The notes beneath the pieces were generated by a model. The model was not told the DNA's origin and did no database searches. It worked only from the letters and a program-made list of their open reading frames with translations. From the NCBI RefSeq assembly GCF_001753675.2, contig NZ_MJUW02000117.1, positions 1-64,000 on the forward strand: a DNA stretch of 64,000 bases, given 5' to 3'. The stretch's first letter is position 1. Each line of letters opens with the position of its first letter. This document shows, piece by piece, positions 39,278 through 62,146 of the stretch. Source of the DNA: Candidatus Brocadia sapporoensis. GTDB taxonomy: Bacteria; Planctomycetota; Brocadiia; Brocadiales; Brocadiaceae. Made by a program: the position numbers and the translations under genes.

Positions 39278-39330
39278 TTTGTTGACATCTGGAATATTGA
39301 CAGACTATAAAACGCAGTGGATTTCACAAA

Positions 39331-41535: not shown

Positions 41536-41578
41536 ATATTTCGTTACAAATATCTAGCTTTTTTAAAAGAGAAAAACC

Positions 41579-43102
41579 ATGCACCAGAATGAACCACTCA
41601 TCTTTGAAAAATCGTCACCTGGCAGACGCTGCTTCGTCCCTCCCGATTGTGATATACCAGAAAAACCCGTGACCAACTTTATTCCCCTAAAGATGTTACG
41701 GAAACAGGAGTTAAAATTACCGGAGGTTTCAGAGATCGACGTTGTTCGTCATTTTACAAGACTCTCCCAAAAGAACTTCTGTGTGGATACTAATTTTTAC
41801 CCCCTGGGTTCATGTACCATGAAATACAATCCCAAAATCAACGAAGACACCGCACGTCTGGAAGGTTTCACAAAACTACATCCCTATCAGCCTATCGAAC
41901 AATGTCAGGGCATCATGGAACTCCTATACAATCTCGAGCAAATTCTTATAGACATTTCCGGGATGAATGCCTTTACGTTACAACCTGCAGCGGGTGCGCA
42001 TGGCGAATTAACAGGGATGCTGATAATTCGAGCCTATATGGAGAAACACGGTGAAAAGAGACACAAGATTATTATTCCTGATTCTGCACATGGTACCAAT
42101 CCTGCCTCTGCTTCCCTTTGTAGTTATGAGGTCGAATCTATTCAGTCAAATACAGACGGTCTTATCGACTTAAAAAAACTAAAGGCCGTCTTTACACGAG
42201 ATACTGCTGCACTTATGATTACCAACCCCAATACCCTTGGATTATTTGAAAAAGATATTCTGGAAATATGCAAGATAGTTCACGATGCTGGTGGACTTGT
42301 TTATTGTGACGGGGCTAATATGAATGCCCTCCTGGGCATTGCAAGACCAGGAGATATGGGCATAGACATTTTACATTTGAATTTGCACAAGACCTTTTCA
42401 ACTCCCCACGGTGGAGGAGGCCCCGGCGCAGGTCCTGTTGGTGTTACTGAAAAGCTAAAACCATTTTTGCCGGTTCCAAGAATTGAAATAGCAAAGAAAT
42501 CAGTAACAGAGCGCGTTCATGACATGGAAAAAGATACTTCCATGCCTAAATTATTACCGAATGATTATATCTTAAATTATGCTTATCCTGATTCCATAGG
42601 AAGAGTAAGGGCATTTTACGGTCATATAGGCATGATGATCCGCGCGTATACCTATCTGCTGTCCCTTGGCAAAGAAGGTGTTTGTAAGGTGGGAGAATAT
42701 TCCATCTTAAACGCTAACTATCTGCAACATAAACTTAAAAGATATTTTGAAATTCCCTATGGAAAAACCTGTATGCACGAATTTGTCATTTCTGCAAAAA
42801 AACAAAAGCAAAAAGGTGTCTCCGCGTTGAATATTGCCAAGAGACTACTGGATTACGGTTTCCATGCCCCCACGGTTTATTTTCCACTCATCGTAGAGGA
42901 AGCTTTAATGATCGAACCTACGGAGACTGAATCGATGGAGACACTCCATGTCTTTGCTGATGCAATGATTCAGATAGCCATAGACATAGAACAACGGCCA
43001 GAGGTAGTGTGCAACGCCCCACAAACAACTCCCATTGGCCGTCCTGATGAAGTGAAGGCAGCACGGGAGCCGAAATTGAAGTGGCAGGACTTTCAAAGAT
43101 AA
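41579..43102 (+). CDS. gcvPB: Glycine dehydrogenase (decarboxylating) subunit 2
   Basis: A 507-residue C-terminal half of the glycine cleavage P protein, carrying PLP on the Lys in LNLHKTFSTPHGGGGPGAGP (about residue 270). Other family signatures: FYPLGSCTMKYNPKIN, LQPAAGAHGELTGMLIIRAY and PDSAHGTNPASASL. The C-terminus (to 507) is slightly longer than in many homologues. Forms a heterotetramer with GcvPA. It is last in the plus-strand run, followed by a palindromic repeat. Confidence 0.95.
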   Translation: MHQNEPLIFEKSSPGRRCFVPPDCDIPEKPVTNFIPLKMLRKQELKLPEVSEIDVVRHFTRLSQKNFCVDTNFYPLGSCTMKYNPKINEDTARLEGFTKLHPYQPIEQCQGIMELLYNLEQILIDISGMNAFTLQPAAGAHGELTGMLIIRAYMEKHGEKRHKIIIPDSAHGTNPASASLCSYEVESIQSNTDGLIDLKKLKAVFTRDTAALMITNPNTLGLFEKDILEICKIVHDAGGLVYCDGANMNALLGIARPGDMGIDILHLNLHKTFSTPHGGGGPGAGPVGVTEKLKPFLPVPRIEIAKKSVTERVHDMEKDTSMPKLLPNDYILNYAYPDSIGRVRAFYGHIGMMIRAYTYLLSLGKEGVCKVGEYSILNANYLQHKLKRYFEIPYGKTCMHEFVISAKKQKQKGVSALNIAKRLLDYGFHAPTVYFPLIVEEALMIEPTETESMETLHVFADAMIQIAIDIEQRPEVVCNAPQTTPIGRPDEVKAAREPKLKWQDFQR

Positions 43103-43356: not shown

Positions 43357-46300
43357 CTATGATACCTTTTTGAGATTTCGTTGCGCTTCCTGATAATTCA
43401 CATCTATAGACAATGCCTTTTCAAAACACATTCTTGCATCGAGGTGCTTATTGTTTTTGAAATACAATACCCCCAAATTATTATATACCGTGGCATCCTT
43501 GCTGTTTAATTCAACTGCCTTTTTAAGTGTAGAAATGGCATCATCCGTTTGATTCATACCCGCATACATCAGTGCAAGGCTGTAATAAACAGAAAAAACA
43601 TTTGGGTTAGCTTTCAATGCCTCTTTGTATGCATCAATGGCTTCGGATGTTTTTTTCTTCGTTTCAAATGCACATCCAATTCCATATAAAGCAAATTCAT
43701 CAATGGGGTTCGTAGTCAGTATTTTCGAATATAATGCAATAGCCTCATCTATGTTTCCCGAGTTTAATGCCTCTTGCCCTTGCGTCAGCAGGGAAGCGTT
43801 CAGATCAACTAAACTCTTATGTAACTCAAGCAACTCATCATAATCAACATCAGGCCACTTTTCTCTGAACCGGGACCCATTAACCGAAATACTATCCTGG
43901 TAATCGATTTGATTCTCAAGGAATGTCTTACTCCTGTAATGATGAATAAATACACTCTCATCCACCATAATAGCAAAACCTTTTTTTCTTACCTTGAGAC
44001 ATAAGTCATCGTCTTCATAATTTCCTGTGCCAAAGGATTCATCTAAACCTCCCACCTCCTCATAAAGCGATTTTTTCATCAGAATCGCAAAACCGGCAAT
44101 GCGGTATCGAGGAGTCAGCCGCCCGTTGTATACCTTTCTTATCTTTTGAGCAAAACAATGGAATCCGTTTTCATCCGTATAGGGAATATCCTTTACCATT
44201 TGTCTGCCACTGATAGAATTGGTTATTGGTCCTACCATGCCAATTTTTTCGCTCCTTGCGAGACTTTCCACAAGATTATCCAGCCAGCCGTCAGAAACCA
44301 GGATGTCATTATTGAGCAATATTATGTAATCTCCACTTGCCGCTGATACTCCCTGGTTATTGCCGGCGGCAAAACCCTTGTTTTCTTGATTCTCAATAAG
44401 TTTGTAGCCTGCGTGACTTGGACATGAATTTGTTTGTTCTTCAAGCAATTTGCGGAGGTATCCTACGGTACCATCTGTTGATCCATTATCCACGAAAATG
44501 ATCTCGTGTGGGTAGTTTGTGTGTTGCCGGATTGAACTGACGCACTGTTGAGTATATTTTAAGGCATTATAAGTAAGAATGATTATAGAGACAAGACTTC
44601 GAGGTTTACAAGCGAACGACCCGGCAGAAATCGTATTGGATATGTGATAACGCTGTATTTTATTATTTTCAGCAATTATCGTTGAGCCGTCTTCCCTGAT
44701 AATAATATCCGGTTTAATCTTACTAATCCACTTGCTATGCAATCGTTGAATATTTTCTGAAACTTTTGAAAAACGCTCCGGGCCGCTTTTTGACTCATGA
44801 TGAGTTACAACACTCTCAGGCTGGTAAACAAGTTTCCATCCCTTCTCCTGAAGTTTAAAGCATAAATCGACATCTTCGTATCCATTCCAATAGTTTTCAT
44901 CAAATCCGCCGGTTTGAGTGAATGCAGATTTACGCATTAATAAGCAAGCGCCGGTTAAGGCCTGATACCGGCGTAATTGGTTCGCTTCTGCAGCATCTCC
45001 TGGTTCTCCGTAATAAATATGCCTGGCAACCAGCGGGTCTGGTAATTTTTGATCATCGATAATTACTACCCCTGCATGCTGAATGGTTCCGTCTGGAAAC
45101 AAGAGTTTCGCCCCCACTGCCCCTACGGAACTATCTTGGGTAAGGATATTCAGAAGCGGTTCCAGCCAGTCTTTTCGTGGTTCCGTATCGTTGTTTAAAA
45201 AGAGGAGATAATCCGTAGAAGCCATTCGTGCCCCCTGATTGCAAGCCGTGGAAAATCCCAGATTCATATTATTAACGATAATTTTAATATCACCTTCTAA
45301 GCTCTTCAGAAATTCTCCGGTGCCATCCGTTGATGCGTTATCAATAATGATGACGTCGTATAATTCTCCCGGTGTATTTTTTATTATTGCCTCAAGGCAT
45401 TTTTGTGTGAATTCAACTTTGTTGAAGACAGGAATAATGATAGAAACCTTCTGAAGCTGCTTAATCCATGCAGTTTGTAAATGTAAAACACGCTGCTTAC
45501 CTTTTGAATACATTCCGTATCTTTCATAAATAATATTTAGTGTTCTCAGAAAATCATTCCGCTTCTCCCCCGACATACTGGTACTGTCGGCTCTCCATGT
45601 AAACTCACCAGTGATCTTTGGTATATGGACAAAATGATATTTTCTGGACATGCGGATCCATAAATCCCAGTCTTCATGGGTGGTAAGTGATTCATCAAAA
45701 AATCCCACTTCGTCCAAACATGATTTTTTATGCATAATACAGAGAACTGGAAAGAGGTTTTGTGCCAATATGAGGTCGGAATCGAAATCAAAGGAATAAG
45801 GGACATCTTTTTGCTTTACGATATACCTTCCATTCTCCGTATCCTGGCACACACGGAACGCATCGGTATAGGCTACTTTATCTTCGTGTGTTTCCAGATA
45901 TGTTACAAGGGTTTCTATATGATCCTGATAAAATCTGTCGTCGTCATCGAGATAGGCAATATACTCACCCGAGGCATGCCTGATAGCAGTATTCCTTGCT
46001 GCCGCAAGCCCTTTATTCTCGGGGTGAACAAGATATTGAATACACAACCGATCATGAAACAGGTCGACAACCGCAGACACATCTTCTCCTGCATCATTCA
46101 CCACAATAACCTCAAAATGTTCATACGTCTGTGAAGCAATGCTTTCCAGGGTAACTTTCAGGGTATCCGGCCTGTTAAAAGTTGGAACAATGACAGAAAC
46201 AAGAGGGTTGTTTTTTAAGGGAAGCGAACAATCCTGAGATAATATTTTTTTAGCCTCTAAAAGGGATTTTGAATCGTAAAGGTTTGGGTGATTGAGAACA

Positions 46301-48006
46301 ATTTGAGCCATTAACTCCCGATGATGTTCGAGGGCATTGGTATACATACTCCTCTCTTTCACCCGGTAGAGAAACAAAGGTTCAGGAATTCTCTTTCCAT
46401 AATGTCCTTTTTCTCCGCAAGATATCCAGAAGTCCCAGTCTTCGTAACCCCAGGTCATGTTGGGATTATATCCTCCTGCAGACTCCCAGGCTTTTCGTCT
46501 ATACAAGGAACCATAGTTAAGATGATTTTGAAAACGCAATCGATTAAAATCATACTCATCTGCACAAATAATCTGATTCACACTGCCAAATTGTTTTACA
46601 TCAGTATAGGCAATTGCAATCTCTGACTGGGCTTCCAAGAGCGCAACCGTCTTCTTTAACATTTCAGAATGTACTAAATCATCTGCATCGAGCGGAAGAA
46701 TGAATTTTCCCTTAGAAACTTTGATTCCCGCATTCCGTGCGCATGACAGACCCTGGTTAACCTGATTAATAAGCTGGATTTGATTGTCTGAATATTTTTT
46801 AATTAACGATTTGGCAACTTGTGTTGTATTGTCGGTGCTGCCATCATTAACAATAATACACTCCCAGTTTTTATAGTTTTGATTAACCACGCTTTCAACT
46901 GCTTCTGGTAAGAAGTTCGCCTGGTTGTAACAAGGAATTATTACCGAGACTAGTGGCTCGGAAGTTTGAATCGTTCGTGTCTGCTTCGCATCATTATTTT
47001 GATTCAAAATACTTTTTCCAGCCATGTTTGTGTTAATCTGCTTTAAATTCATATAATTAAATATCGTTTCAAAACGATGTTGCCAGGTATGTTCAGTTAT
47101 AGTTCGTTTATATCCATTTGTTGCAATTTCGTTTCGTTCATCTTCATTTTTAAGGTAATATTTAGCCTTTTCTATTAATTCATCTACTGAATTGAATATT
47201 ACTATCTCTTTTTCCTCCTCGTAGTAATCCTTGAGATTATCAGCATTGCTGGACAATTGAAAACTTCTTGTTCCCGGGATCTCAAAATTCCTTCCTTTAA
47301 TCTGCTGCCCGATTAACGTTGATGAATTTGATAAATTAAGATTAATTTTACTCCGCGAAAATATCCTCACCATTTGATGAAAAGGGATGCGCGGCCGGTT
47401 TTCCCATCCAAAACCGAAGACCTCTAGCTTGTATCCATTTTGCAGTAATTTTGCCAAGACTTCTACACGATTACCATGAGGTTGTCCTACAAAACCCATC
47501 TCTATATCTTTTGGAATATCATAAGGAATATACAATTCATGGTTGCATGCCCATTGAGTCTTTATGACTTTATGGGATATACCCATATTTTTATATTTTG
47601 GAATAGCGTCATTCGCCGTTGTGCAAATAACATCAAAATGTGGAGCAACTACGGAGCTATATTTTTCAAACCTCCAGTGATCGTCACAAAACCAATGAAC
47701 CGTTGCCGTACCCAATGACGATATTTGTTTAAATACCTCATAGCATGGATCACGGTTAAAATCGAATAACACGGCAAACAGACACGTTGGCCTTTCTCTC
47801 TTAGCTAATTCATACAAATCTTGCGTCATTAAATCTAACCCAAGGTTCAATCCCTGCTCCATAAAATCGAAGTGAACAAAATCCCAATGGTGTTTTTCGG
47901 AATAGCTTTTCAGTGGATGATAAAAATTCCGATGCTCAAACGAAAAGCCTCTTGCTTTATCGCCGTAATCATACCTCATTCCAACATATAACAATTTCTG
48001 CTTCAT
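43357..48006 (-). CDS. Giant modular glycosyltransferase: CgeB-like, four GT2, TPR
   Basis: A 1549-residue cytoplasmic protein. Residues 1-325 resemble CgeB/YkvP-type glycosyltransferases (VHWFCDDHWRFEKY, KGRNFEIPGTRSFQLS, AKYYLKNEDERNEIA). Four GT2 modules follow, each opening with the GT2 start and nucleotide motif: about 345-580 (VSVIIPCYNQANFLPEAVES), 600-840 (VSVIVPTFNRPDTLKVTLES), 850-1120 (VSIIIPVFNKVEFTQKCLEA) and 1135-1390 (VSIIILTYNALKYTQQCVSS). Metal motifs are DADD, DDDD, NNDTEP and NNDI. About four TPRs end it (1415-1549; YGIGCAFETKKKTSEAIDAY). Its ATG is 3 bp after the stop of the larger glycosyltransferase gene, so the two are co-translated. Likely adds several sugars in sequence to one acceptor, perhaps flagellin or a surface glycan. 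Confidence 0.85.
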   Translation of the reverse strand: MKQKLLYVGMRYDYGDKARGFSFEHRNFYHPLKSYSEKHHWDFVHFDFMEQGLNLGLDLMTQDLYELAKRERPTCLFAVLFDFNRDPCYEVFKQISSLGTATVHWFCDDHWRFEKYSSVVAPHFDVICTTANDAIPKYKNMGISHKVIKTQWACNHELYIPYDIPKDIEMGFVGQPHGNRVEVLAKLLQNGYKLEVFGFGWENRPRIPFHQMVRIFSRSKINLNLSNSSTLIGQQIKGRNFEIPGTRSFQLSSNADNLKDYYEEEKEIVIFNSVDELIEKAKYYLKNEDERNEIATNGYKRTITEHTWQHRFETIFNYMNLKQINTNMAGKSILNQNNDAKQTRTIQTSEPLVSVIIPCYNQANFLPEAVESVVNQNYKNWECIIVNDGSTDNTTQVAKSLIKKYSDNQIQLINQVNQGLSCARNAGIKVSKGKFILPLDADDLVHSEMLKKTVALLEAQSEIAIAYTDVKQFGSVNQIICADEYDFNRLRFQNHLNYGSLYRRKAWESAGGYNPNMTWGYEDWDFWISCGEKGHYGKRIPEPLFLYRVKERSMYTNALEHHRELMAQIVLNHPNLYDSKSLLEAKKILSQDCSLPLKNNPLVSVIVPTFNRPDTLKVTLESIASQTYEHFEVIVVNDAGEDVSAVVDLFHDRLCIQYLVHPENKGLAAARNTAIRHASGEYIAYLDDDDRFYQDHIETLVTYLETHEDKVAYTDAFRVCQDTENGRYIVKQKDVPYSFDFDSDLILAQNLFPVLCIMHKKSCLDEVGFFDESLTTHEDWDLWIRMSRKYHFVHIPKITGEFTWRADSTSMSGEKRNDFLRTLNIIYERYGMYSKGKQRVLHLQTAWIKQLQKVSIIIPVFNKVEFTQKCLEAIIKNTPGELYDVIIIDNASTDGTGEFLKSLEGDIKIIVNNMNLGFSTACNQGARMASTDYLLFLNNDTEPRKDWLEPLLNILTQDSSVGAVGAKLLFPDGTIQHAGVVIIDDQKLPDPLVARHIYYGEPGDAAEANQLRRYQALTGACLLMRKSAFTQTGGFDENYWNGYEDVDLCFKLQEKGWKLVYQPESVVTHHESKSGPERFSKVSENIQRLHSKWISKIKPDIIIREDGSTIIAENNKIQRYHISNTISAGSFACKPRSLVSIIILTYNALKYTQQCVSSIRQHTNYPHEIIFVDNGSTDGTVGYLRKLLEEQTNSCPSHAGYKLIENQENKGFAAGNNQGVSAASGDYIILLNNDILVSDGWLDNLVESLARSEKIGMVGPITNSISGRQMVKDIPYTDENGFHCFAQKIRKVYNGRLTPRYRIAGFAILMKKSLYEEVGGLDESFGTGNYEDDDLCLKVRKKGFAIMVDESVFIHHYRSKTFLENQIDYQDSISVNGSRFREKWPDVDYDELLELHKSLVDLNASLLTQGQEALNSGNIDEAIALYSKILTTNPIDEFALYGIGCAFETKKKTSEAIDAYKEALKANPNVFSVYYSLALMYAGMNQTDDAISTLKKAVELNSKDATVYNNLGVLYFKNNKHLDARMCFEKALSIDVNYQEAQRNLKKVS

Positions 48007-48009
48007 GGT

Positions 48010-51000
48010 CTATTTTGATAATTGCTGATATACATCATTTAGAGTAGGGTTATTACCGTCTAATTCTAACGCGTCTTCTATATATTTTTTTGCTTCAGAA
48101 ACTTCACCATTTTTTAAAAGAATTTCAGCGGCATGAAGGTAGTGAGTACTGTCCGCGTAGTTAGCTTCGATTTGCCTTTGAATATCGAATAATTTGCGTT
48201 TCCATAAGTTATCTGATATATCGTTTTCTTGTGTGCCTGTCTTTCCATGATAAAGCTGTAAATAAAGATTTTCGTACTTATCTATTATAGATTCCCAGGT
48301 AAGTTTTTCCTTCCATTCTTGCCATCCTTCCCTGACAAGTTGTTTTCGAAAACATTCGTCATCCAATATTTTATTGGCATTAACAGCCATTTCATCAGGC
48401 TTACAAACGATTCCACCTTTCCATTCACGTACATTCCCACAATCTGTAGAGACAAAGGGCGTCTTCGATGCCTTAGCCTCAATAATCACCAATGGTGATG
48501 CTTCCCGATATGAACCAAATAAAAATATATCCGCCTCGTGAAAAGCTGCAAGGATATCTTCGCGCGGAACATCAACGTGAAATTGGATATTCATGCCTTG
48601 TGATTGTGCTTTAAGGTTACTTATTTGATCGCCTCCTTTACCAATAAAAACCATAGTAAAATCGTTGCGATTCATAAGCCGGACACACTCGATAACTCTA
48701 TCGTGTCCTTTTTCGACATAATAATTTGCAACACATAATCCGTAAAATGGAGTATTTACCAGGTATTTTTCACGGAATTTTACCAGAGGAGGTTTCGTGA
48801 ATTCTTCTTCATCAACACCGTTAGGAATGACGAGACTATTTACAAACCCATGATTCCTTGCATATTCATAATCCTGATAGCATGACGAGTGATAGATTGA
48901 CGCATCATATTGAGGAAGAACTGCAGGAATCATACAATTAAAGTAATCTGCAAATTGGGGCCAGCGAATGGTACGGCTATCTGAAAGTGCAGAATAACCA
49001 CACGGCGCTATGATATTAACCTTAGGTTTCCTTACTGATTGCACCGCTTCAAAAGCCAGATCGGTTGCCCATTGCTGAGCAGCATAGTTCATCATAATAT
49101 CTGACGGATGGCTTCTTAAAAAATCCTTGTATCGGCCGACATCATTACCCCATATACCATTTCCAAAAGATCCTTTCACTGAAAATTCTTCAATATGAAC
49201 GCCATTCAGTTCACGAGTATTGCGACAATCAAGTTTTGCAGTAGCAACGGTAACACGATATCCGCGGCTTACAAGTCGTTCTGATATTTGCTGAACCACG
49301 GTTTGAGCGCCACCCGTATGAGGATAATAAAACTCAACGGTGTGAAGGATCGAGGGTTTCTTATGCGGACGACTCACAAGAACCTGAGGTAGCGATTGTT
49401 TCGTATTTTTCTGTTCCTCTGTTATGTAATATTGTTGGATCTTTTTAGCAAGCATTTTCTGCGTCTTCATCCGTGTATTTCCAATGCTTTCCGAATGCAA
49501 CCGAATCCTGTGCAGTACTTCCGGAACATTTGCTAATTCAAATCCAGCAATTAATGCACGTGCAAAAAAATCATAATCATCAACACTACGATATTCTTCA
49601 CGATAGCCACCAATTTTATGAAATACCTCACGACGAATCAGCGCAGCGCTGTTGATCATTGAATTTACGTCACCGAAAGTTTCACGAATGCGCCAGGACT
49701 GCCATTCTATCGGAGGTTGACCTCTTGTATTACCTGTATCATCAAAATATTCGGCAAAGCAGCCCACAATCGCTATTTCCGGATGAGTTTCAAGACATTC
49801 AACCAATTTTTCCAGTTTTATTGGTAATGAGATGTCGTCGCTATCATGATTAAGCAAATATTTTGAATTGGGATTTGTGTGCTTTATTGCCTCATTTCTG
49901 GTTTTAACCTCACCGTTGTGCATTAATGCCAGGACTCTGATTCTCTTTTCACGGCTTGAATAAGTATTTGCAATTTCAAGTGATTTATCGGTAGAGCCAT
50001 CATCAGCAATAACGATCTCAAAATCACGAAAGGTTTGTGCAAGAATTGAATCCAGGGTTTCGGTAAGGTATTTTGCACCGTTATATACCGGCATAAAAAT
50101 GGATACTTTTGGCGCTGTGTCGTCGTTCGCTTTTATTAATACTTTATCTAACTTAGAACACATTACCTGCCATAGTCTTTCCTCACTTCCAGACTCATCA
50201 ATCATACTATTGCGTAACAAATTCTTTGCATTCTGTTGCAGTTCCGAAAAATCAACGACTCGTTTCTTTTTAGCCTGAACTATAATGTTCCTTGTCATCT
50301 GCCATTGGGCAAAATTATACTCGATGTCATCAAACCCTAATTTGTCCAAGACCTCTTGAAATTTATCTTTGTACCATCCATCCTTGTGTACCGCCCATTC
50401 CGCTTCATGGGATCCAAAGATGTGTCGTATAACTTCTTGCTTCTGTTTGGACGAACATTGTAATGATGCCAGGAGTGCTACGCTTAACTCGAAATCAGGC
50501 GTTTCAATGAAAAGGCTTCCACCTACTTTCAACCACTGATTCCAATTACAGAGTAACGCCAGCGCCGTCGGACGGTCAAAATGTTCAAACACATGATGCA
50601 AACGAATTTCTTCAACTGTTTGATTTGGAAAGCATAAGGTAGTAATGTCGGAGTACGCCTCTGCACCCGATTGTATCTGCACCGTATGCTCAAATACCGG
50701 ATAATCGATATTTATGTATCCTTTAAGGTTTCGTTCACCACACCCAAGATGTAGCCGTACCGGCTGCCCGCCAGCCAAAACACCTTCCTTTCGCAACTGA
50801 TCAAGGGTATTTACACCCGGACTGAGCGCCATCCGTCGCCTTGCTTCCACTCTATCAGAGGACATATCTGTATTCGCAAGATTTATTACATCTGCATTGC
50901 TTTCTTCCAGGTACATACGTCTCGGTTCCGGAATCTTTGTAGCAACGAAATGTTTCCATTTATCTTGATACAATTTAATATCCAGCACACTATCATTCAG

Positions 51001-54000
51001 GTTTGATTTCTTTTGTTCATCGAGAATGTTGTTATGAATAACCAGGCTTTGTGGTAATGGAATGAGTACTTTGCCCTTTTCATAGAGCTTGAGGCATATA
51101 TCACCATCGGCGCAATAAAACTTGTAATCTTCATTCAGACCACAAACACCTCTCAGATCTTCTAATCTCAATAACCCATAGTTCATGAGCAACTTTTGTC
51201 CATAGGTATAATCGATGCCATATTTTTCCCATCCTGGTTCAGCACTTATATTTTTGTAAAAGAATATCCCTCCAGCCACTTCAGGATTTTGCCTATTCAG
51301 ATGCTCGACTGCTTTGGAAATACAATCCTCATGAAAGGCAATATCATCACTTGCGTACATTCCCCATATGCCCTTGGCCTTTGAAAATCCATAGTTATAG
51401 AGCTGCGGCCATGAATGCCTTCCCTCACCTAAGCATGCCTTTTCATTGTAAATTTGCCGGATATTATGTTTTCGTAATATTTCCAAGGTATTATCTGAAG
51501 AGTTGCCCTCAATGACGATTACCTCATACTGTACACCGCGAGTTGCCTTTGCCAGGCTTGTAAGCATCTCATCAAGAAGCCTGGCTCGATTTTTTGTGGC
51601 AATGATAATACTAACGTCAATTGTGCCGGTTGACTCTATTGTTTTAGAAACTGATGAGGTACCGGACTCTTGAAGTTGATCAAGATATTTAAGGTTTTCT
51701 TTTGCTATTACATTTGTATTATCAGTACTCAGCACCGTTTCTAAAAAGTATCTGGCCGAGTTAAAGTTGTTTTCAAGAATGCTGATAACCGCGAGACTGT
51801 TTAATGCATTACACTGTTTGTCATCAATCTTTAAAATATTTTCCAGTAATTCACGGGCTTGCGCATACTCTCCCAATTGGATTAAATTCTCAGCTTTTGA
51901 AAGTGATTTAGAATGAGTAACTCGGTCGCCAAGGTATTTGACATTTTGATGTGCAACCTCATTCTGTGGGTCAATATGCAGAACCTTTGCCAGAATTTCC
52001 TCCGCAGATCTCCAATTTTCTTGCATAATTTCTGTAACGGCAAGATTATTCAAGGCTTTTATATTGTTCGGTGATTGACTAAGAATCTTTGATAGAAGTT
52101 CTTTCGCCTCTTGTGTTTTTCCATTTATTAATGCTTGTTTCGCCTGATGGTTTGAAATATCTACAGACTGTTGCAAATCTCTGACTGGCATATCATGTGA
52201 TGTTTCCTTACAGAATAGAATATCACTAACCATAGCGGTTTCAACGGACTCGGCATCTATAAAATTGCTAAACAACCGCCACTTTGGTTGATCTATTTGT
52301 GGATTCCACAATGTACTGTTCTGAACAAACATCCGTGGCTTTTTTGATCTGTTCATGAGAGTTTGTTCTACTGCTTTTGTCATAACTTCTGGATTTACAC
52401 CCTTGATACAATATTCGGTCTGATATTTACATTTCCAATTACAACCATAGCATTCCAGTGGAAGGCATACTACAGATGTAAGTGGTGAATATGGCATAAA
52501 ACGTCCAAAGTGTCCGCCTCCTAGCAATATAACATTTTTTATACCAACGGCGCACGAAATATGAGCTGTTCCGGTTTCTGCACCAACTGCCAGAATGCAA
52601 CGTTTTAGCAAAGCCGCTGTCTGCCGGAGTGTAGTTTTTCCACTCAGATTTATTGTTTTGGAACCGATATCATTAAGATTCTGCTGGTTGATTGTATGAT
52701 CTCTATCAGTACCAAAGGCAAGGACAGTGAATTGGTTTTCTTTACAAATTTGCGACAGGGCTTTTCCGTAATGTTGATAGAGACGTTCATCGCATTGTGC
52801 ACCAGCAAAAATCGCAATTGTTTTTTCTGGCTGCAGGTCATGGTTACTAAAATAGCTATCAGCAAATTGCTCATCTGCCGATGTTAACCAGACAGTCGGC
52901 TGTAAAGTTGGCACTTCAATTCCAATACCTTTTAAAAAATCTTTATGTCGGTCAAGTTCAAGCTTAGATTCTTGGTTATCGGGTAATATATGTGTATAAT
53001 ACTTATTGTGTTCATCCCTGAGTTCACCTGAAATATTGCATAGATTGCCGTTAAATGCGAGTCTCTCTTTGGCTCCGCTACCTAATGTAAACACATCTGT
53101 TAACGGTTCTCGGGAATATACAGAGTTCAAGGCATGGTCTGCGTTTACTGACTTTAACTTTCGTAAAATATCGGCTCTGTATTGCTCATTTTCATATGCC
53201 AACGACTTGTTGTAACGAATGACATCAAACACAAACGGACACGACTCGTAAAGTTCTGCTATGTGTTCCTGACAGACGACAGTAATATTTGCATTATTAT
53301 ATTTCTCGTGAATATAAGGCAGCATTGATGAGGCAAGTACATTGTCGCCAATTGAATCAGTGCGAATCCAGAGCACATTTTGTACTTCGGTTGTGGCTGT
53401 ATTATTTTTTTTAAAGTGCCATTGTCCACCAATACTCCGTTGAGCAATAGGGTGAATGTTTTGCGATTGGACAGTATTAACCTGGGCGGAGTCCTTTACC
53501 CAGGTAAAGTAATTATTCAGTGCCACCGGGAAACTAGATTCTCGCTGAAGCTCCTTCCATTGCTCTACCGCGTTTCTATAACCGTAATAAACCTCTTTGA
53601 AACGAAGTTGTTTCTCAAGCGTGTAGGCATAATGCTGAAAAATTATATTTTGCGCTTCAGTTTCTTTATGCATGAATGGGTTCTTTGTTGCCACGTCTAT
53701 CAATTGGCCATCCCGTGTCTGTTGACAAAGACGGGGTGGTTCATGTGAACTCCAGCGAAAGCCTGGTTGAAATTTCCATGTACGAAGCCATTCATAACTT
53801 GTGTTGTTTCCATAGGTATCACGAGTTGTTATTACAAGGTTTTCACCGACAAAAAAGTGGCATAAAAAATAAGCAGATGTTTTATCTGGATGCTGTAAGA
53901 ACAAGGAACGCATAGTACAAATTTGCTCCATTGTCCAGAGTTCATCGGCATCCACTTGCCAAAGCAGGCATTCTTCATTAATATTTAATAAAGGTGCGTT

Positions 54001-56181
54001 AATCATCTCAAGCTTGCCGTCCCAAAAGACGCCGTTTGGCTTGCGGTATATTGTTATATTTTCTGAATATTGTTCCTTGAGTTCGTTAAGATATTCGGTA
54101 GTACCATCATTGCTTAGACCGTTTTGGTGTATCTCGTCTGTAATGCGTCCGCCAAATTGTAAGCTCCACGCAGTGTCGTGCTTCAAGTCTGCCACACCTT
54201 CTACGATATGCCAATGCCATTTAAATGGCAATTGTCTGAAGACCTCGATATGATGGCGAATGAATGGTTCGCCATTCAGCACAATGGTAAAAAAATTGAT
54301 TGACATATTTGATGAATTGTTGTGCTCCGATTCTAAGTGATTCATCGGAAAAGCAATGTAATTTTCATAAAAAGAATTTGAATCTGTTACTTTATCACCG
54401 ATAGTACCGTCCTTGAAAATGGTATGGCATTCGTAACCGTTGGCAATAAGCAGATCAAACACATATTGCGCCTTAGTGCTTAGCCCCTCCAGCATTTTTT
54501 GAGAAATTTCAAACTGTAAATAGCGAATCGCCTTATTTTTGAGAAGTTCCAGAGCTCCTTCAAGCGCAAACACCTCCGCCCCCTCCACATCTAATTTTAA
54601 ATAGTCAATCCTGCTGATGTGGTTTTCTTTACAAAATGAGTCCAGGGTAATGGCTTCGACTTCAACAGATTTTATGATAGGAACAAATTCTTTCTCGTTC
54701 TTCGGATCTACCATCCGTGGTTTGCCCAAACTATTCCACGAACAATACAGATCGGGAAATTCATTCAATATAACTTTCGTGTTTTTTGAATAGACTGCCT
54801 TTAGGAAAAGGTTCACGTTAGAGCACCTACTCTTATTTAATGCTGAAGAAATTATATTAAAAGAATTTTGTGATGGTTCGAATGCGTAAACCTTCCCTTT
54901 TTCCCCAACGAGAAGACTAAATAATTTCGTGTATTTACCAATATTTGCACCGACATCAAAAACTACCATCCCTTTTTTTACTATATTTCTGACGAGTATT
55001 TGTTCGCTTAGCTCAGAATCAAACTGATAATCATCATTGGAATTATCTGTCGAATTGAGTTGCTTCGAAGCAGTACAGCTCGACAAGTCGTTAGTCTTGC
55101 TATCTATTTCAATGGAATTGTCTCCCTTGATACCATTGATACCAAAGGCTTTTGAAAGGATTAAAGTATATTGCTGGAGGACCGATTTCTTAAACTCATC
55201 CGCATCCTGAGCGATCTTGTGCAGACTAATCTCTGAAATTGCATCTAATGCTTGATAGAATTTATCTATATTATTTACCCAGACTGAGTGCGGAAATCCT
55301 TCCAGTGTATGAGTATGTCTATCAGTATCATTGATAATAACTCCTGGAATCCCATGCCCGTTGGCAAAAAGGCTTGAATGAAGCCTTGTTGTTACAACAA
55401 GATCATATCTTGAATAGATCTCGAATAGATCTTGATAAAATGAAGAGAAGATAACGGGGATATCATAGCCTTTTAGCAAGTCGAGAAAATGAAAATACTC
55501 CGTTTTGTGATGGGCAATAACCTCAACCACATACTTCCGAGACAATTCACGAAGAATGCATAGCGCCAGTTCGTGCATTGACTTGTCACAGCACTGGTTT
55601 GTTATACCGATTTCGTGTGGAAGTTGAATTGAAAAAACGATCTTTTCAATTGTTTTATCAGGGGGAACAATTTTTACCTTATCAACAGACAAGATAGAGG
55701 GACAGTTTATATGATAGTACGGGAGATTTAAGTTCGAAATAAATTTAGGCGTTTTTTTTGTTCTTCCAATGATTACCTTTGCATTCTTAAAGATAGTAGC
55801 TTCTGGCTCTTCATTGATATATTTTTCCACGTAATCATTTTCATAACCACCACCTATCAGGTATACACGGTCTTGAAGACTGTTAGCAATGACCCAGTTA
55901 TATAAGTCTTTAATTTCTAATCCCGCAGATAACCCAACCACAACCACGGCATCAACAGAATGACAATATTTCCCGATATCTCCCTTTGCTACAGTGTTAC
56001 TAATGCCGCGGAATTTACTCGACGGGAAATAATCGGCATTGAAATTATAGAATAATAAGTTAATGATGGATTCACCAAAAAGCCTTTTTAGAATGTTTAT
56101 TGTGCCGTCTCGTTCAAAATCATCTCCGGGGTTCCAAAAGCTTGTTCCGGAAATTACAATATTTTTTGTTATTTCTTTCAT
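48010..56181 (-). CDS. Giant multidomain glycan-assembly protein, 2723 residues
   Basis: Modules in order: polysaccharide pyruvyltransferase-like (1-360; VVVVGLSAGLEIKDLY, RLHSSLFANGHGIPGVI); FkbM methyltransferase (about 395-605; VFDVGANIGKYTKLF, YLKLDVEGAEVFALEGA); a glycosyltransferase with WQVDADELW (about 625-925); GT9 heptosyltransferase-like (about 930-1260; LWIRTDSIGDNVLASSMLP, VGAETGTAHISCAVG); TPRs (about 1340-1500); GT2 (about 1520-1790; VSIIIATKNRARLLDEMLTS); SAM methyltransferase (about 1800-1960; VRLHLGCGERNLKGYINID); GT2 (about 2020-2260; VSIFMPVYNGAKYLTETLDS, NHDSDD); GT4 (about 2275-2640; FYYPHTGGAQTVVQQISERL, FGSYREASPLVIIEAKA); terminal TPR (2660-2723). No signal peptide or membrane helix is apparent. 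The frame is uninterrupted for 8.2 kb, so the fusion is real unless the assembly is wrong. It precedes the second giant enzyme and lies about 800 bp from the flagellar cluster on the same strand. Confidence 0.85.
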   Translation of the reverse strand: MKEITKNIVISGTSFWNPGDDFERDGTINILKRLFGESIINLLFYNFNADYFPSSKFRGISNTVAKGDIGKYCHSVDAVVVVGLSAGLEIKDLYNWVIANSLQDRVYLIGGGYENDYVEKYINEEPEATIFKNAKVIIGRTKKTPKFISNLNLPYYHINCPSILSVDKVKIVPPDKTIEKIVFSIQLPHEIGITNQCCDKSMHELALCILRELSRKYVVEVIAHHKTEYFHFLDLLKGYDIPVIFSSFYQDLFEIYSRYDLVVTTRLHSSLFANGHGIPGVIINDTDRHTHTLEGFPHSVWVNNIDKFYQALDAISEISLHKIAQDADEFKKSVLQQYTLILSKAFGINGIKGDNSIEIDSKTNDLSSCTASKQLNSTDNSNDDYQFDSELSEQILVRNIVKKGMVVFDVGANIGKYTKLFSLLVGEKGKVYAFEPSQNSFNIISSALNKSRCSNVNLFLKAVYSKNTKVILNEFPDLYCSWNSLGKPRMVDPKNEKEFVPIIKSVEVEAITLDSFCKENHISRIDYLKLDVEGAEVFALEGALELLKNKAIRYLQFEISQKMLEGLSTKAQYVFDLLIANGYECHTIFKDGTIGDKVTDSNSFYENYIAFPMNHLESEHNNSSNMSINFFTIVLNGEPFIRHHIEVFRQLPFKWHWHIVEGVADLKHDTAWSLQFGGRITDEIHQNGLSNDGTTEYLNELKEQYSENITIYRKPNGVFWDGKLEMINAPLLNINEECLLWQVDADELWTMEQICTMRSLFLQHPDKTSAYFLCHFFVGENLVITTRDTYGNNTSYEWLRTWKFQPGFRWSSHEPPRLCQQTRDGQLIDVATKNPFMHKETEAQNIIFQHYAYTLEKQLRFKEVYYGYRNAVEQWKELQRESSFPVALNNYFTWVKDSAQVNTVQSQNIHPIAQRSIGGQWHFKKNNTATTEVQNVLWIRTDSIGDNVLASSMLPYIHEKYNNANITVVCQEHIAELYESCPFVFDVIRYNKSLAYENEQYRADILRKLKSVNADHALNSVYSREPLTDVFTLGSGAKERLAFNGNLCNISGELRDEHNKYYTHILPDNQESKLELDRHKDFLKGIGIEVPTLQPTVWLTSADEQFADSYFSNHDLQPEKTIAIFAGAQCDERLYQHYGKALSQICKENQFTVLAFGTDRDHTINQQNLNDIGSKTINLSGKTTLRQTAALLKRCILAVGAETGTAHISCAVGIKNVILLGGGHFGRFMPYSPLTSVVCLPLECYGCNWKCKYQTEYCIKGVNPEVMTKAVEQTLMNRSKKPRMFVQNSTLWNPQIDQPKWRLFSNFIDAESVETAMVSDILFCKETSHDMPVRDLQQSVDISNHQAKQALINGKTQEAKELLSKILSQSPNNIKALNNLAVTEIMQENWRSAEEILAKVLHIDPQNEVAHQNVKYLGDRVTHSKSLSKAENLIQLGEYAQARELLENILKIDDKQCNALNSLAVISILENNFNSARYFLETVLSTDNTNVIAKENLKYLDQLQESGTSSVSKTIESTGTIDVSIIIATKNRARLLDEMLTSLAKATRGVQYEVIVIEGNSSDNTLEILRKHNIRQIYNEKACLGEGRHSWPQLYNYGFSKAKGIWGMYASDDIAFHEDCISKAVEHLNRQNPEVAGGIFFYKNISAEPGWEKYGIDYTYGQKLLMNYGLLRLEDLRGVCGLNEDYKFYCADGDICLKLYEKGKVLIPLPQSLVIHNNILDEQKKSNLNDSVLDIKLYQDKWKHFVATKIPEPRRMYLEESNADVINLANTDMSSDRVEARRRMALSPGVNTLDQLRKEGVLAGGQPVRLHLGCGERNLKGYINIDYPVFEHTVQIQSGAEAYSDITTLCFPNQTVEEIRLHHVFEHFDRPTALALLCNWNQWLKVGGSLFIETPDFELSVALLASLQCSSKQKQEVIRHIFGSHEAEWAVHKDGWYKDKFQEVLDKLGFDDIEYNFAQWQMTRNIIVQAKKKRVVDFSELQQNAKNLLRNSMIDESGSEERLWQVMCSKLDKVLIKANDDTAPKVSIFMPVYNGAKYLTETLDSILAQTFRDFEIVIADDGSTDKSLEIANTYSSREKRIRVLALMHNGEVKTRNEAIKHTNPNSKYLLNHDSDDISLPIKLEKLVECLETHPEIAIVGCFAEYFDDTGNTRGQPPIEWQSWRIRETFGDVNSMINSAALIRREVFHKIGGYREEYRSVDDYDFFARALIAGFELANVPEVLHRIRLHSESIGNTRMKTQKMLAKKIQQYYITEEQKNTKQSLPQVLVSRPHKKPSILHTVEFYYPHTGGAQTVVQQISERLVSRGYRVTVATAKLDCRNTRELNGVHIEEFSVKGSFGNGIWGNDVGRYKDFLRSHPSDIMMNYAAQQWATDLAFEAVQSVRKPKVNIIAPCGYSALSDSRTIRWPQFADYFNCMIPAVLPQYDASIYHSSCYQDYEYARNHGFVNSLVIPNGVDEEEFTKPPLVKFREKYLVNTPFYGLCVANYYVEKGHDRVIECVRLMNRNDFTMVFIGKGGDQISNLKAQSQGMNIQFHVDVPREDILAAFHEADIFLFGSYREASPLVIIEAKASKTPFVSTDCGNVREWKGGIVCKPDEMAVNANKILDDECFRKQLVREGWQEWKEKLTWESIIDKYENLYLQLYHGKTGTQENDISDNLWKRKLFDIQRQIEANYADSTHYLHAAEILLKNGEVSEAKKYIEDALELDGNNPTLNDVYQQLSK

Positions 56182-56973: not shown

Positions 56974-58092
56974 CTAATCAATAACCAGACTAATCCGTTT
57001 GTGTAATGGTTGTGGCAACTCAGCTAATGCATTTTTTATGTCCTGTTGTTGGGATTGTATGGCTAACGATTTTTCCCATATAGCGCGTGCTTTATTTGGA
57101 TTTTTTATCGCCTTATAACAATACCCCAATAAATTATAGAGCGACATAACTATTTTATCGTCTATCCCGGTGTTTTCAGTCCACAGGGAGTTGATCGTAT
57201 CGGATGCTTCTTTGGTTTTGATGTATTCTTCCAGAGTATAAATGGCATTCTCATATTTATTTTGTCTGTAATAAATATTTCCAAGATTGTAAAACGCTTC
57301 CGTGTAGAAGCAATCGAGTTTAATTGCCATAGAAAAAAAGGTTTCGGCCTGTTTATCCATGCCTGTTTCCACACAACATTCTCCAATTAGATTGTAAGCT
57401 TCAGTATTATTTTTATCTTTGAGTAACGTTTTTCTCAGATAATCCATTGCTCTGGTATATTTCTTTTGCAGTTTATAAATAATTCCGAGAAGAAGATTTG
57501 CTTCAGGAAGAGATGGATCACTCATGTGTGTATACAGAAGTATATTTTTTGCCTTTGAGTAGTCACCTTTTTTAATCAAGAGTTTACAAAGTTTCATTGC
57601 CGTTGATACATGTTCCGGTTTCAACCGATAAGCCTCAGATAAGAAAGCCTCAGCCTCTTCTTCCATATTACTCTGGATACAGCATACACCCATGAGATAA
57701 TAAGTTTCGTAATCGTCGGGATTCACCAGAACAACTTCTTTCAGATAGGAAAGCGCTGTGGTATATTCCTTACGATCCATATGCAGATAAGCAAGATTAT
57801 AATGAGCTTCTGTCAATGAAAAATCAATCTGCAATGCCTTTTTAAAATTATTAATCGCCTCTTGATATTTTTTATTTCTGGTATAATAGACCCCCAAATG
57901 ATTGTACCCTTGTGCATAATTAGGGTTCATTTCGACTGCAGACTTTAAGTAGGGATACGCCGCATTCCAGTCACCTTTTTCTATGGCGTTATTTGCAAGA
58001 TTGATGTTGTATTCAAAATTTTCGTGATTGTTTATGGTATTCTGGTTACTGGTAACTGTATTGAACAACGCATCTTTTTTAATATTTATCAT
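56974..58092 (-). CDS. TPR-repeat protein downstream of csrA
   Basis: A 372-residue protein made almost wholly of about eight to nine TPR units from residue 25 to 350, such as [40 protein letters not shown] and [20 protein letters not shown]. No signal peptide, so probably cytoplasmic. Its ATG lies inside the end of csrA (14-bp overlap), giving translational coupling. TPR arrays bind protein partners. TPRs also end both giant glycosyltransferases, so it could dock them to filament subunits or act as a flagellar chaperone; both are speculation. Confidence 0.8.
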
Positions 58093-58420: not shown

Positions 58421-58888
58421 CTATGCTCGTAGGAGCGGATGATGTAAACTGTAGTAGTCTTCAGTCAAAACACATTGCTTTCCCTTTTTATTTTTCATGT
58501 TAACAAATATGGGGCCTTTGAGATTTATGGTAACATCAGTGGGACTATTGCCCAGGGTTACCATACAAAATATTTCTAAATCCTCCTTATCATTGCTCGC
58601 TAGCGGCGCCAAATCAAATAAGAATTTCATCGGATTATAATCAGTAAAGAAAGGCATTGGGTTAAGAATTGGAAAAGCAATAAGAGGGTCTTCTACAGAC
58701 ACCAACCATTCAAAAGGAAGACACTCTTCAATATTAACTATGACAAACTGCCTCAAGTCTTCAAATCCTAATACACCATTATCGAAGGCTATTATATTCT
58801 TTTTTTTAATATGCAAATTACCAAACTTTTCTGTAGATAAATTGACAATGCTATCATTCTCGTTCACTTTTTCTTTCATTTTTAGCAT
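58421..58888 (-). CDS. fliW: Flagellar assembly factor FliW
   Basis: A 155-residue FliW. Family marks: IIAFDNGVLGFEDLRQFVIV and LPFEWLVSVEDPLIAFPILNP, then DVTINLKGPIFVNMKNKKGKQCVL near the C-terminus. FliW binds CsrA or flagellin and so ties flagellin translation to export. The ATG has an AGGAG site. A hexanucleotide tandem repeat lies 30-54 nt upstream. It is transcribed ahead of csrA. Confidence 0.95.
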   Translation of the reverse strand: MLKMKEKVNENDSIVNLSTEKFGNLHIKKKNIIAFDNGVLGFEDLRQFVIVNIEECLPFEWLVSVEDPLIAFPILNPMPFFTDYNPMKFLFDLAPLASNDKEDLEIFCMVTLGNSPTDVTINLKGPIFVNMKNKKGKQCVLTEDYYSLHHPLLRA

Positions 58889-59168: not shown

Positions 59169-60080
59169 TTATCTTAAAAAATCAAGAAGAGTAGGCTGGA
59201 TAATTCTTGCTCCTGTATTTAAGGAGGATTGCAGGATATTTTCCTGATTTTTTAAATCCATAATCAGGGATGCTACATCAACTTCTTCTGTATATGATAT
59301 TAATTCTTTTAAGGTTATTTGTAAGTTATCAAGACTCTGTGAAGTTAAATCTAATCTATTTGTTTTTGCCCCAAACCTGGTAATCTCTGTTGATATAGTA
59401 TCAGTTGCAACGTCTAAGGATTTCCTTAAATGTAAAAATGCAGCAGAATCAAAGGTGTCCGATGCAAGTTCGTTTCTCATGGATACCAAGGTTGTAAATA
59501 GACCAGTATCCTGAAAGATAGTTCCACCAGGCGTATTGATTTGTACATAGGTTTTTGGACCTATTTGATAGGCAATTTCTTCTTGATTACCATCATAGGT
59601 TACTGATGAAATCTTCCCGAAGCTATCTCGCGTTGCGGAAAATGGTATTGTAGAAGTTTTTGTGCCTGCAAAAATAAATCGACCACCGTTATCAGTATTA
59701 CTATATTGCAATACAGATTCTAACAACTCATTCATTTCGTTTGAGATTACTTTACGTTCTGATTGACCTATCTCGTCGTTACTGCCTTGTATACCTAATT
59801 CTTTGATCTTAGTAAGAATTTCTTGAATATTCTCAAGGGAGTTGAAGGTATAATTCATGCGTTCTTTAGCAACTTCCGCGTTCTCTGAAAATTGCTGAAA
59901 TTTAAGCTCCTCAGCCTTTAATCCAAGCACTTTTCGTGCACCCGAGGGGTCATCTGATGGCCGGTTTATTCGTTTTCCCGTAGACAGTTTTTCCTGTATT
60001 TCCTGCATTTTTTTTAAGTTAAAACTTATATTCGCAAGGGTCGTACGGCTCATACTTTCCTGGGTTATCCTAAATGACAT
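59169..60080 (-). CDS. flgL: Flagellar hook-filament junction protein FlgL
   Basis: A 303-residue flagellin-fold protein (HAP3) forming the second junction ring. Starts SFRITQESMSRTTLANISFN and has the conserved KLSTGKRINRPSDDPSGARK (about 33-52). The C-terminus, VDVASLIMDLKNQENILQSSLNTGARI, matches the D0/D1 coiled coil. Its ATG has an AAGGAG site. Follows flgK by 104 bp in the same direction. Confidence 0.95.
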   Translation of the reverse strand: MSFRITQESMSRTTLANISFNLKKMQEIQEKLSTGKRINRPSDDPSGARKVLGLKAEELKFQQFSENAEVAKERMNYTFNSLENIQEILTKIKELGIQGSNDEIGQSERKVISNEMNELLESVLQYSNTDNGGRFIFAGTKTSTIPFSATRDSFGKISSVTYDGNQEEIAYQIGPKTYVQINTPGGTIFQDTGLFTTLVSMRNELASDTFDSAAFLHLRKSLDVATDTISTEITRFGAKTNRLDLTSQSLDNLQITLKELISYTEEVDVASLIMDLKNQENILQSSLNTGARIIQPTLLDFLR

Positions 60081-60184: not shown

Positions 60185-62146
60185 TTAGCCAATTGAGATT
60201 AGAAGCTTATCTATAAGCCCATCAACAATAGAAATGTATTTTGCAGAAGCTTGGTATGCCTGCTGAAATCTTACCAGGTTGACCAATTCTTCATCCGTTG
60301 AGACCCCTGATATTTCATCCCTGCGATTTTTTAAGTTTGTCTCCAGGTCCGTAAAACTGTCCTCTGCTTTGAAAGCATTACTGGCTTCTTCCCCCAGCGA
60401 TGACGCAATCCGATGCAAGTAGTCCGTAAAGGTCGTATTATCGACAGCAGTAGTTTTATATTGCAAAGCAACGAGTCGTAACGCATTTGTAATATTTCCT
60501 ACTTCCCCTGTAGAAGCTGCAATCCGTGAAACATCCCCTGCAATGTCTGAATTAACGAGAATATCTGATGCGCCCGTCCCATTAAAAAAAGTATTTATTC
60601 CCAGAGCAGCAAGTAAATCAGTTTTATCGGAATCGGATACAACATCTAATGAAAACGTATCGCCTGCTGTGACGGTACCGCTGGAAAGAGCAAGAGAAAC
60701 TCCATTACCAACGGAAATAATATTCCCGGGTGTATAATTGTCTCCAACATCGAGCGTTGCTACCACTGCCCCGATGTTATTTTTTACTTCGATTTGGAGA
60801 CCCGCCGTGCTTCCAATCATACCAGTACCTAACGCAGTAAACGTATATACATCATTTGCCTGACCCGAGTAGATGCCAGACACTGAAGCTGTAGATGTCC
60901 CCATATTCCCGGGATTTGGATCCAAGGCATAAGAAAAATTAAATTGATAACCTGTATCAGCAAGAATTCTTAGTCTATTATCGGCAATAGACGCCGATAT
61001 ATTTGCAATGCCATCTATGGCAGTTTGTAAATCAGCGAGCGAATCCGTGGAAACATCGACAGAGATAACGTTTTTAGTAACCTCACCGGTACTCTTATTT
61101 ATTACCGTAAGAAAAATATCACCGTCCGATGGTGCTATTTTCAAGCCGGCATCGTTTAACTTTGCGGTTACGCTTGACACTGCATTTGTCGACATCAGGC
61201 TGGTAAAACCACCGGACAATCCCACTCCCTCACTATGAATCTTATTAACTTCAGCAATCAGATTAGATGCAAACGTATCGAGTTTATCTTTATACCGTGT
61301 CACCGTAACATTATAAAAGTCCTGTAATCCTTTTATTTCACCTGTATAAAAAACGTATTTCGAGTTCTTATTTCCGGAATTTACAATTTCTATCTCTCCG
61401 GAGGGATCTTGCTCTAAAGTAAAACTTATCGAAGAGGTACCGGACACTAAAGTTCCGCTTGGTGTAGAGACATTCACCATGCCATTATTTTCAGATGTCA
61501 CTGTGATATTCACCAGCTTACTGAGATCCTGGAGTAATGCCTCACGCGCATCTAATAAGTCGTTTGATTCTATGCCACGCACATGAATTGCTGATATCTC
61601 ATTATTTAAGTCTGCGATATTTTCGGCAATTTTATTAACATCGGATATTTTGCTTTCAATGCTTTGTTTAACAAATATTTCCATTTGATTTAGCTCATCA
61701 TCTATTCTGTGAAAGGTATCTGTCATAGTATTTGTCTTTTCCAGCAGTGTCGCACGGGAACTCATGTCCTCCGGGTTTTGCGTCAGATCATTTATACCTT
61801 TAAAAAAAGACGCCAGTGCGTTGTTGAGGCTCGCCTCTGAAGTTTCATTAAATACCGTTTCTAATTCCCTGAGATATTGGCTTTTTACCGATGCACTGCC
61901 AAGAGATGATGAAATATCCCTCAACCGGCTATTAATGTAATCGTCCTTATGTCTGATTATCCTGACAATGTCTACCCCTTGTCCGATTGTACCCGCATTG
62001 GTAACGAAAGGTGGCCTGGCGGCCATAATGGTTGATTGTCTGGTGTAACCTTTTGTATTTGCATTGGAAATATTGTGGGCCGTTACCAGCATGGCACGCT
62101 GGGCAGCTAATAATCCACTTAAACCAATTTGTAAATCAGAAGACAT
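60185..62146 (-). CDS. flgK: Flagellar hook-associated protein FlgK
   Basis: A 653-residue HAP1. The N-terminus, LQIGLSGLLAAQRAMLVTAH and NISNANTKGYTRQ, and the C-terminus, ELVNLVRFQQAYQASAKYIS, are the standard D0/D1 signatures. A beta-rich variable middle (about 290-560), rich in Ser, Thr, Gly and Val, makes it longer than the typical 450-550. Its ATG has a G-rich site (AGGGGGG). Next to flgN, whose product chaperones FlgK and FlgL. Confidence 0.95.
   Translation of the reverse strand: MSSDLQIGLSGLLAAQRAMLVTAHNISNANTKGYTRQSTIMAARPPFVTNAGTIGQGVDIVRIIRHKDDYINSRLRDISSSLGSASVKSQYLRELETVFNETSEASLNNALASFFKGINDLTQNPEDMSSRATLLEKTNTMTDTFHRIDDELNQMEIFVKQSIESKISDVNKIAENIADLNNEISAIHVRGIESNDLLDAREALLQDLSKLVNITVTSENNGMVNVSTPSGTLVSGTSSISFTLEQDPSGEIEIVNSGNKNSKYVFYTGEIKGLQDFYNVTVTRYKDKLDTFASNLIAEVNKIHSEGVGLSGGFTSLMSTNAVSSVTAKLNDAGLKIAPSDGDIFLTVINKSTGEVTKNVISVDVSTDSLADLQTAIDGIANISASIADNRLRILADTGYQFNFSYALDPNPGNMGTSTASVSGIYSGQANDVYTFTALGTGMIGSTAGLQIEVKNNIGAVVATLDVGDNYTPGNIISVGNGVSLALSSGTVTAGDTFSLDVVSDSDKTDLLAALGINTFFNGTGASDILVNSDIAGDVSRIAASTGEVGNITNALRLVALQYKTTAVDNTTFTDYLHRIASSLGEEASNAFKAEDSFTDLETNLKNRRDEISGVSTDEELVNLVRFQQAYQASAKYISIVDGLIDKLLISIG

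Follow-up and report, generated by a model that had tools for sequence, protein, structure and literature searches.

The P0001 gene and its modules

The megaenzyme gene P0001 lies in a stretch of 64,000 nucleotides from Candidatus Brocadia sapporoensis (contig NZ_MJUW02000117.1, positions 1 to 64,000), referred to here as the window. Hydrazine synthase alpha is encoded in the genome, as it is in five of ten congeners, and marks the organism as an anammox bacterium. P0001 is a single intact frame of 2723 codons at 48010-56181 on the minus strand, with its ATG at 56181 and its stop at 48010. A preliminary description had proposed one uninterrupted frame here and left the strand unstated. The frame is borne out, and a chance origin is rejected, as 200 shuffled versions of the 8172 bp gave no stop-free run longer than 182 amino acids (aa). 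The plus-strand reading has stops throughout. The protein comprises eight catalytic modules (five glycosyltransferases (GTs), one member of the pyruvyltransferase superfamily and two methyltransferases) and TPR blocks on one chain. The modules were assigned with Pfam, NCBIfam and module-by-module hidden Markov model (HMM) scans.

48010..56181, minus strand: megaenzyme gene P0001, 2723 aa (open reading frame and Pfam)
55147..56181, minus strand: module 1, PS_pyruv_trans-like, residues 1-345, RLHS motif (Pfam PF04230)
54337..55044, minus strand: module 2, FkbM-family methyltransferase, residues 380-615, VFDVGANIG and LDVEG motifs (Pfam, TIGR01444)
53407..54324, minus strand: module 3, WQVDADELW glycosyltransferase, GT-A-like, residues 620-925 (alignment, AlphaFold, Foldseek)
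52342..53394, minus strand: module 4, GT9 heptosyltransferase-like, residues 930-1280 (Pfam, PDB)
51682..52170, minus strand: TPR block a, residues 1338-1500 (Pfam TPR_19)
50887..51639, minus strand: module 5, GT2a, residues 1515-1765, ASDD motif (Pfam, 62.7 bits)
50137..50838, minus strand: module 6, class-I S-adenosylmethionine (SAM) methyltransferase, residues 1782-2015, LHLGCG motif (Pfam Methyltransf_23/11)
49417..50118, minus strand: module 7, GT2b, residues 2022-2255, ADDGSTD and DSDD motifs (Pfam, strong)
48247..49356, minus strand: module 8, GT4, residues 2276-2645, EX7E motif (Pfam, 68.8 bits; PDB GT4 matches)
48013..48204, minus strand: TPR block c, residues 2660-2723 (Pfam TPR)

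The module list of the preliminary description agrees with the HMM domain assignment and, for module 3, with AlphaFold and Foldseek. Catalytic signatures can be recognised in each of the catalytic modules, so the loss of catalytic residues from most modules, which that description had considered, is not seen. The FkbM module has a Pfam score of 81.9 bits at residues 409-584 and a TIGR01444 score of 93.2 bits, over the cut-off, and its motifs are mostly retained across 20 homologues. The GT9 module contains the motifs RTDSIGD and ETGTAH, with a Pfam score of 64 bits at residues 1085-1248 and a PDB match to heptosyltransferase II (1psw, E 2.8e-5). The Pfam match of TPR block a covers residues 1346-1500. 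The weakest assignments are modules 6 and 1. Module 6 is below the Pfam cut-off for Methyltransf_23/11, with the SAM motif LHLGCGE present and retained in 13 homologues. Module 1 is above its cut-off (PF04230, residues 17-284, 36.9 bits versus 25.3) and has the RLHS motif; no close relative was found in 294 genomes of the phylum, and the PDB gave nothing useful by sequence. As had been proposed, no named enzyme corresponds to the whole protein: 82 NCBIfam families gave matches, and in the best 25 of these a score above cut-off is reached solely by the generic FkbM domain model. P0001 has no likely membrane span, with a maximum 19-residue hydropathy of 1.33. No tandem repeats were found that would point to recent duplication within the gene. 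Composition gives no clear signal of a foreign origin of the modules, with third-position GC content at 0.27-0.42 versus 0.36-0.46 in other genes of the window.

No Pfam family matches the WQVDADELW module above its cut-off (GT2, PF00535, 12.3 bits versus 23.3, and another match also below), and the PDB has no match to it by sequence. An alignment of 41 sequences, drawn from anammox bacteria, cyanobacteria, Nitrospira-type bacteria and Bacteroidetes, has a mean column identity of 77%, and D125, D127 and E128 of the DxDE motif are invariant. The AlphaFold model has a pLDDT of 89. Its top Foldseek matches in the PDB are nearly all GT-A enzymes, including SunS/ThuS, SpsA, K4CP and WrtF, at E values of about 2e-5 to 5e-4 and TM scores of only 0.3-0.45. 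The predicted structure thus assigns module 3 to a distant GT-A family. Of 392 sampled Planctomycetota genomes, just two have the module, the Brocadia sapporoensis assembly counted; in many cyanobacteria it follows an FkbM domain, at 57-66% identity. Cyanobacterial proteins of about 800-2300 aa (L048-L093) hold the module, often after FkbM. Many of them have no other recognised P0001 module, and uncharacterised large GT proteins are common in cyanobacteria. In Azospirillum, the module is N-terminal in a 642-residue protein annotated as GT9, and further copies lie in polysaccharide clusters.

The flagellar locus and its relatives

The gene order in the direction of transcription is flgI, flgJ-like, flgN, flgK, flgL, fliW, TPR gene, P0001 and P0002, all on one strand. 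The neighbours nearest to P0001 are the following.

43357..48006, minus strand: P0002, conserved partner, 1549 aa, a GT-B-type GT, four GT2 and TPR (Pfam)
56974..58092, minus strand: TPR protein, 372 aa, conserved upstream neighbour
58421..58888, minus strand: fliW (PF02623, 112.6 bits)
59169..60080, minus strand: flgL, hook-filament junction protein (TIGR02550, 224.9 bits, cut-off 127.2)
60185..62146, minus strand: flgK (TIGR02492, 335 bits)

P0002 starts 3 nt downstream of the P0001 stop and is 77-79% identical in four congeners; the operon, TPR use and modular style that P0001 had been said to share with the next gene are all present. The 790 bp between the TPR gene and P0001 (56182-56973) contain no long frame. 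The Pfam label "flagellin" at 59169-60080 is rejected in favour of FlgL, by its TIGR02550 score; the gene is not FliC. Elsewhere in the window (37937-43102), the two genes for the glycine dehydrogenase subunits flank a PAS-HAMP-GGDEF gene (39331-41535), with all three on one strand. On another contig of the assembly, a second, shorter P0002-like GT2 protein is encoded near the contig start (L112, G000:C111, 124-5483), followed by GDP-mannose dehydratase-like and mannose-1-phosphate guanylyltransferase-like genes, named from sequence motifs only.

Comparison with the congeners G002, G005, G009 and G008 shows fixed flanks. DNA identity with these genomes is 78-81% over P0002 and the final 70-100 bp of P0001, and 72-81% over the TPR gene, fliW, flgL and flgK. 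Between the flanks, nearly all of P0001 is without a DNA match in G002, G005 and G009. Homology returns near 48078-48110, where the last 30 or so codons of TPR block c open the conserved flank. At this position, G002, G005 and G009 encode megaenzymes of 1207-1445 aa with other modules. G002 also has about 12 kb between the TPR gene and its megaenzyme, consisting mostly of nucleotide-sugar genes: epimerases, GHMP kinase, nucleotidyltransferase, HAD phosphatase, DegT aminotransferase and two B12-binding radical-SAM enzymes. G008 has a degraded P0001-like remnant (L031, 9354-11776), whose pieces lie in three frames, with an intact TPR block, GT2a broken up over several frames and an internal gap. 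G001 has a 2492-residue megaenzyme on its flagellin contig, with TPR, GT2a and methyltransferase in common with P0001. In each of G001 and G005, a single contig carries the megaenzyme-partner pair with flgK-flgL-fliW on one side and fliC-fliD on the other, and in G010 and the sister genome G030 a partner-type gene is on the fliC-fliD contig. On these sequence comparisons, P0001 appears to be one member of a recombining family, the gene itself being the variable cassette of the locus. The preliminary interpretation missed this, while its frame, modules, shared operon and style, catalytic signatures and lack of a named enzyme all stand.

Other anammox bacteria, Nitrospira-type bacteria, Bacteroidetes and Verrucomicrobia encode relatives of 2,200-3,200 residues that have overlapping runs of modules. 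The best relatives found differ in organism from module to module: Thermodesulfovibrionales for WQVDADELW (71%), Oscillatoria for FkbM (60%), a Nitrospira-type genome for GT9 (53%), the piece in G008 for TPR block a (78%), G001 for GT2a (72%), a Verrucomicrobium for the module 6 methyltransferase (52%), a Verrucomicrobia flagellar locus for GT2b (69%, versus about 33% in congeners), and G028, of a sister genus, for GT4 (68%, with 59% in Verrucomicrobia). Several runs are shared in order, which fits the exchange of multi-module cassettes. WQVDADELW-GT9-TPR-GT2a-methyltransferase is shared with L044 (Thermodesulfovibrionales), and FkbM-WQVDADELW-GT9-TPR with L047 (Bacteroidetes), whose megaenzyme is about 8 kb from flagellin. 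Methyltransferase-GT2b-GT4 is shared with L094 (Verrucomicrobia) at 52, 69 and 59% identity; a flagellin gene ends 136 bp before this trio, and a GT/TPR protein of 3231 residues comes after the trio. The megaenzymes of L044, L045/L046, L047 and L094 are, like P0001, large multi-GT chains with common module runs (two genes of 1216 and 3231 aa in L094, and 2234-2696 aa in the others). They differ from P0001 in having other modules and never its full order, and they are uncharacterised. Two of them, the Nitrospira-type L045 and L046 proteins (2533 and 2532 aa), have the same architecture as each other. Such large relatives in other assemblies, the L045/L046 pair included, make an assembly fusion unlikely as the source of P0001. 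The search for the same module order that had been suggested did not find it in 392 sampled Planctomycetota genomes or among the loci returned by a scan of one genome per GTDB species.

Comparison with known glycosylation systems

In FlmG of Caulobacter, the TPR region binds flagellin, and the soluble enzyme is required for the O-glycosylation of flagellin in the cytoplasm (PMC7591256). Maf-1 works with a TPR at its C-terminus, and in Clostridium proteins that combine GT2 and TPR are predicted flagellin glycosyltransferases (PMC13317340). P0001 is similar to FlmG, Maf-type and GT2+TPR enzymes in having GTs that are probably soluble, a TPR block and a flagellar gene context, with five motif-bearing GT modules and two TPR blocks on its chain. 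In contrast to FlmG, which has one catalytic domain in 596 residues, P0001 has eight catalytic modules in 2723, and its sugar is not evidently a nonulosonic acid. The flagellin glycosylation islands of Geobacillus and Dickeya are variable, lie beside flagellin and contain GTs, FkbM methyltransferases and sugar genes in a cluster (PMC5109656, PMC7575072). There the activities are in separate genes, whereas in P0001 they are fused and appear to be swapped as modules within one frame.

WbbB, WbdA and Klebsiella O7 ORF6 have several GT modules on one chain, some with a methyltransferase (PMC11231755). P0001 resembles the WbbB/WbdA type in having at least two GT modules on a chain. That type comprises two to a few modules, a coiled coil, ABC-transporter export and a lipid-linked acceptor, and P0001 differs in its eight catalytic modules and TPRs; no ABC-exporter genes for polysaccharide occur among the neighbours scanned. 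P0001 is a variant of known flagellar glycosylation islands and multi-module glycan enzymes. No carrier-protein domain of the polyketide synthase or nonribosomal peptide synthetase type is among its listed Pfam matches. By analogy with FlmG and Maf-1, the TPR blocks are the only candidate tether, and the assembly-line operation on a tethered acceptor that had been proposed is unproven.

Proposed function and significance

P0001 is probably a cytosolic, TPR-bearing glycan-assembly enzyme that forms the variable part of a flagellar glycosylation island, changes by cassette exchange, and acts with P0002 on flagellin before export. It would be a soluble protein with many active sites in the cytosol, and its TPR blocks would most likely dock the acceptor, presumably flagellin, or partner proteins. 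Together with P0002, which has five more GT modules and TPR, it may assemble a short hetero-oligosaccharide one sugar at a time, with nucleotide sugars as donors, and its methyltransferases may methylate the product. The glycan would be added to flagellin in the cytoplasm, before export. While the flanks stay, sets of modules would be swapped in frame, and the glycan would change with them. We infer the identity of the sugars, the order of action and the co-linearity of the modules. Flagellin is the favoured acceptor because of the FlmG and Maf-1 precedents and the Verrucomicrobial trio behind a flagellin gene.

Several observations weigh against flagellin. P0001 adjoins flgK-flgL-fliW, and fliC/fliD are near the island in several congeners, yet fliC and fliD were not found in the Brocadia sapporoensis assembly, which is rated 99% complete; all ten congeners have both. 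The missing genes reflect either an assembly gap or real loss; the sole Flagellin_N match in the assembly is FlgL. Related megaenzyme-partner pairs of the sister genus (G020, G025, G028) have no flagellar genes in their vicinity; in G020, a single contig that we infer to be Kuenenia, about 1 Mb separates the pair from the closest flagellin. In G025, the relative (L030, 9122-16870) has 2582 residues and contains sulfotransferase, TylF-type and further methyltransferase modules, GT4, TPR and GT2a. The WQVDADELW module also occurs in cyanobacteria (two genomes tested have no flagellin) and in Azospirillum polysaccharide clusters, and is therefore not specific to flagella. Because flagellin and FliD are missing from the assembly and one sister genus has its pairs far from flagellins, the acceptor could be a surface protein. 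The main rival explanation, rated as rather unlikely, is accordingly that the O-glycan made by P0001 belongs to an S-layer or extracellular-matrix glycoprotein, or to several surface proteins, and that the flagellar position is an easy site for cassette exchange. The S-layer glycan of Kuenenia is a short, highly methylated hexasaccharide (PMC5088730), which favours this explanation together with the missing flagellin and the GT-methyltransferase-TPR megaenzymes of the sister genus. It is opposed by the pair staying inside the flagellar island in congeners, by the distant relatives beside flagellin genes in Verrucomicrobia and Bacteroidetes, and by the sister-genus partner lacking the N-terminal GT of P0002.

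A lipid-linked glycan of the lipopolysaccharide O-antigen or capsule type, as made by WbbB and WbdA, is quite improbable as the product. GT9 is a heptosyltransferase family, and the WQVDADELW-GT9 and WQVDADELW proteins of Azospirillum lie in polysaccharide clusters, one with ABC transporter genes. Nevertheless, no polysaccharide export or polymerase genes are among the neighbours scanned, P0001 has TPR blocks where WbdD and WbbB have a coiled-coil ruler (PMC11231755), and the surrounding gene string is flagellar. It is still less probable that P0001 is a non-functional or largely inactive product of recombination. Such decay is visible in the broken counterpart of G008 and would fit the weak scores of modules 6 and 1, whereas the unbroken 8.2 kb frame, the signatures in all catalytic modules and the tight coupling to P0002 speak for an active enzyme.

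P0001 is unusual in size and module count, and its role as an exchangeable cassette is of greater interest than the protein taken alone. The diversity of flagellar glycans is usually attributed to the swapping of whole genes. Here the swapped unit appears to be an in-frame set of modules inside one very large enzyme, whose nearest module relatives are in different phyla. A broader proposal is tentative and rather doubtful: that anammox bacteria and some distant ones have modular glycan megasynthases in their flagellar islands, that in-frame cassettes of these enzymes are traded across lineages, and indeed across phyla, at conserved TPR/methyltransferase anchors, and that module content and order set the sugar sequence, which would make them the glycan equivalent of modular polyketide synthases. 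If the glycan follows the modules, its structure could be tied in a testable way to the architecture of the gene, and the modules would provide parts for glycan engineering. Module 3 defines a conserved glycosyltransferase family, predicted to be GT-A, that has no Pfam model and is widespread in cyanobacteria. The surface of anammox bacteria matters for biofilm formation in wastewater treatment, and the locus points to candidate enzymes for the methylated glycans of these organisms.
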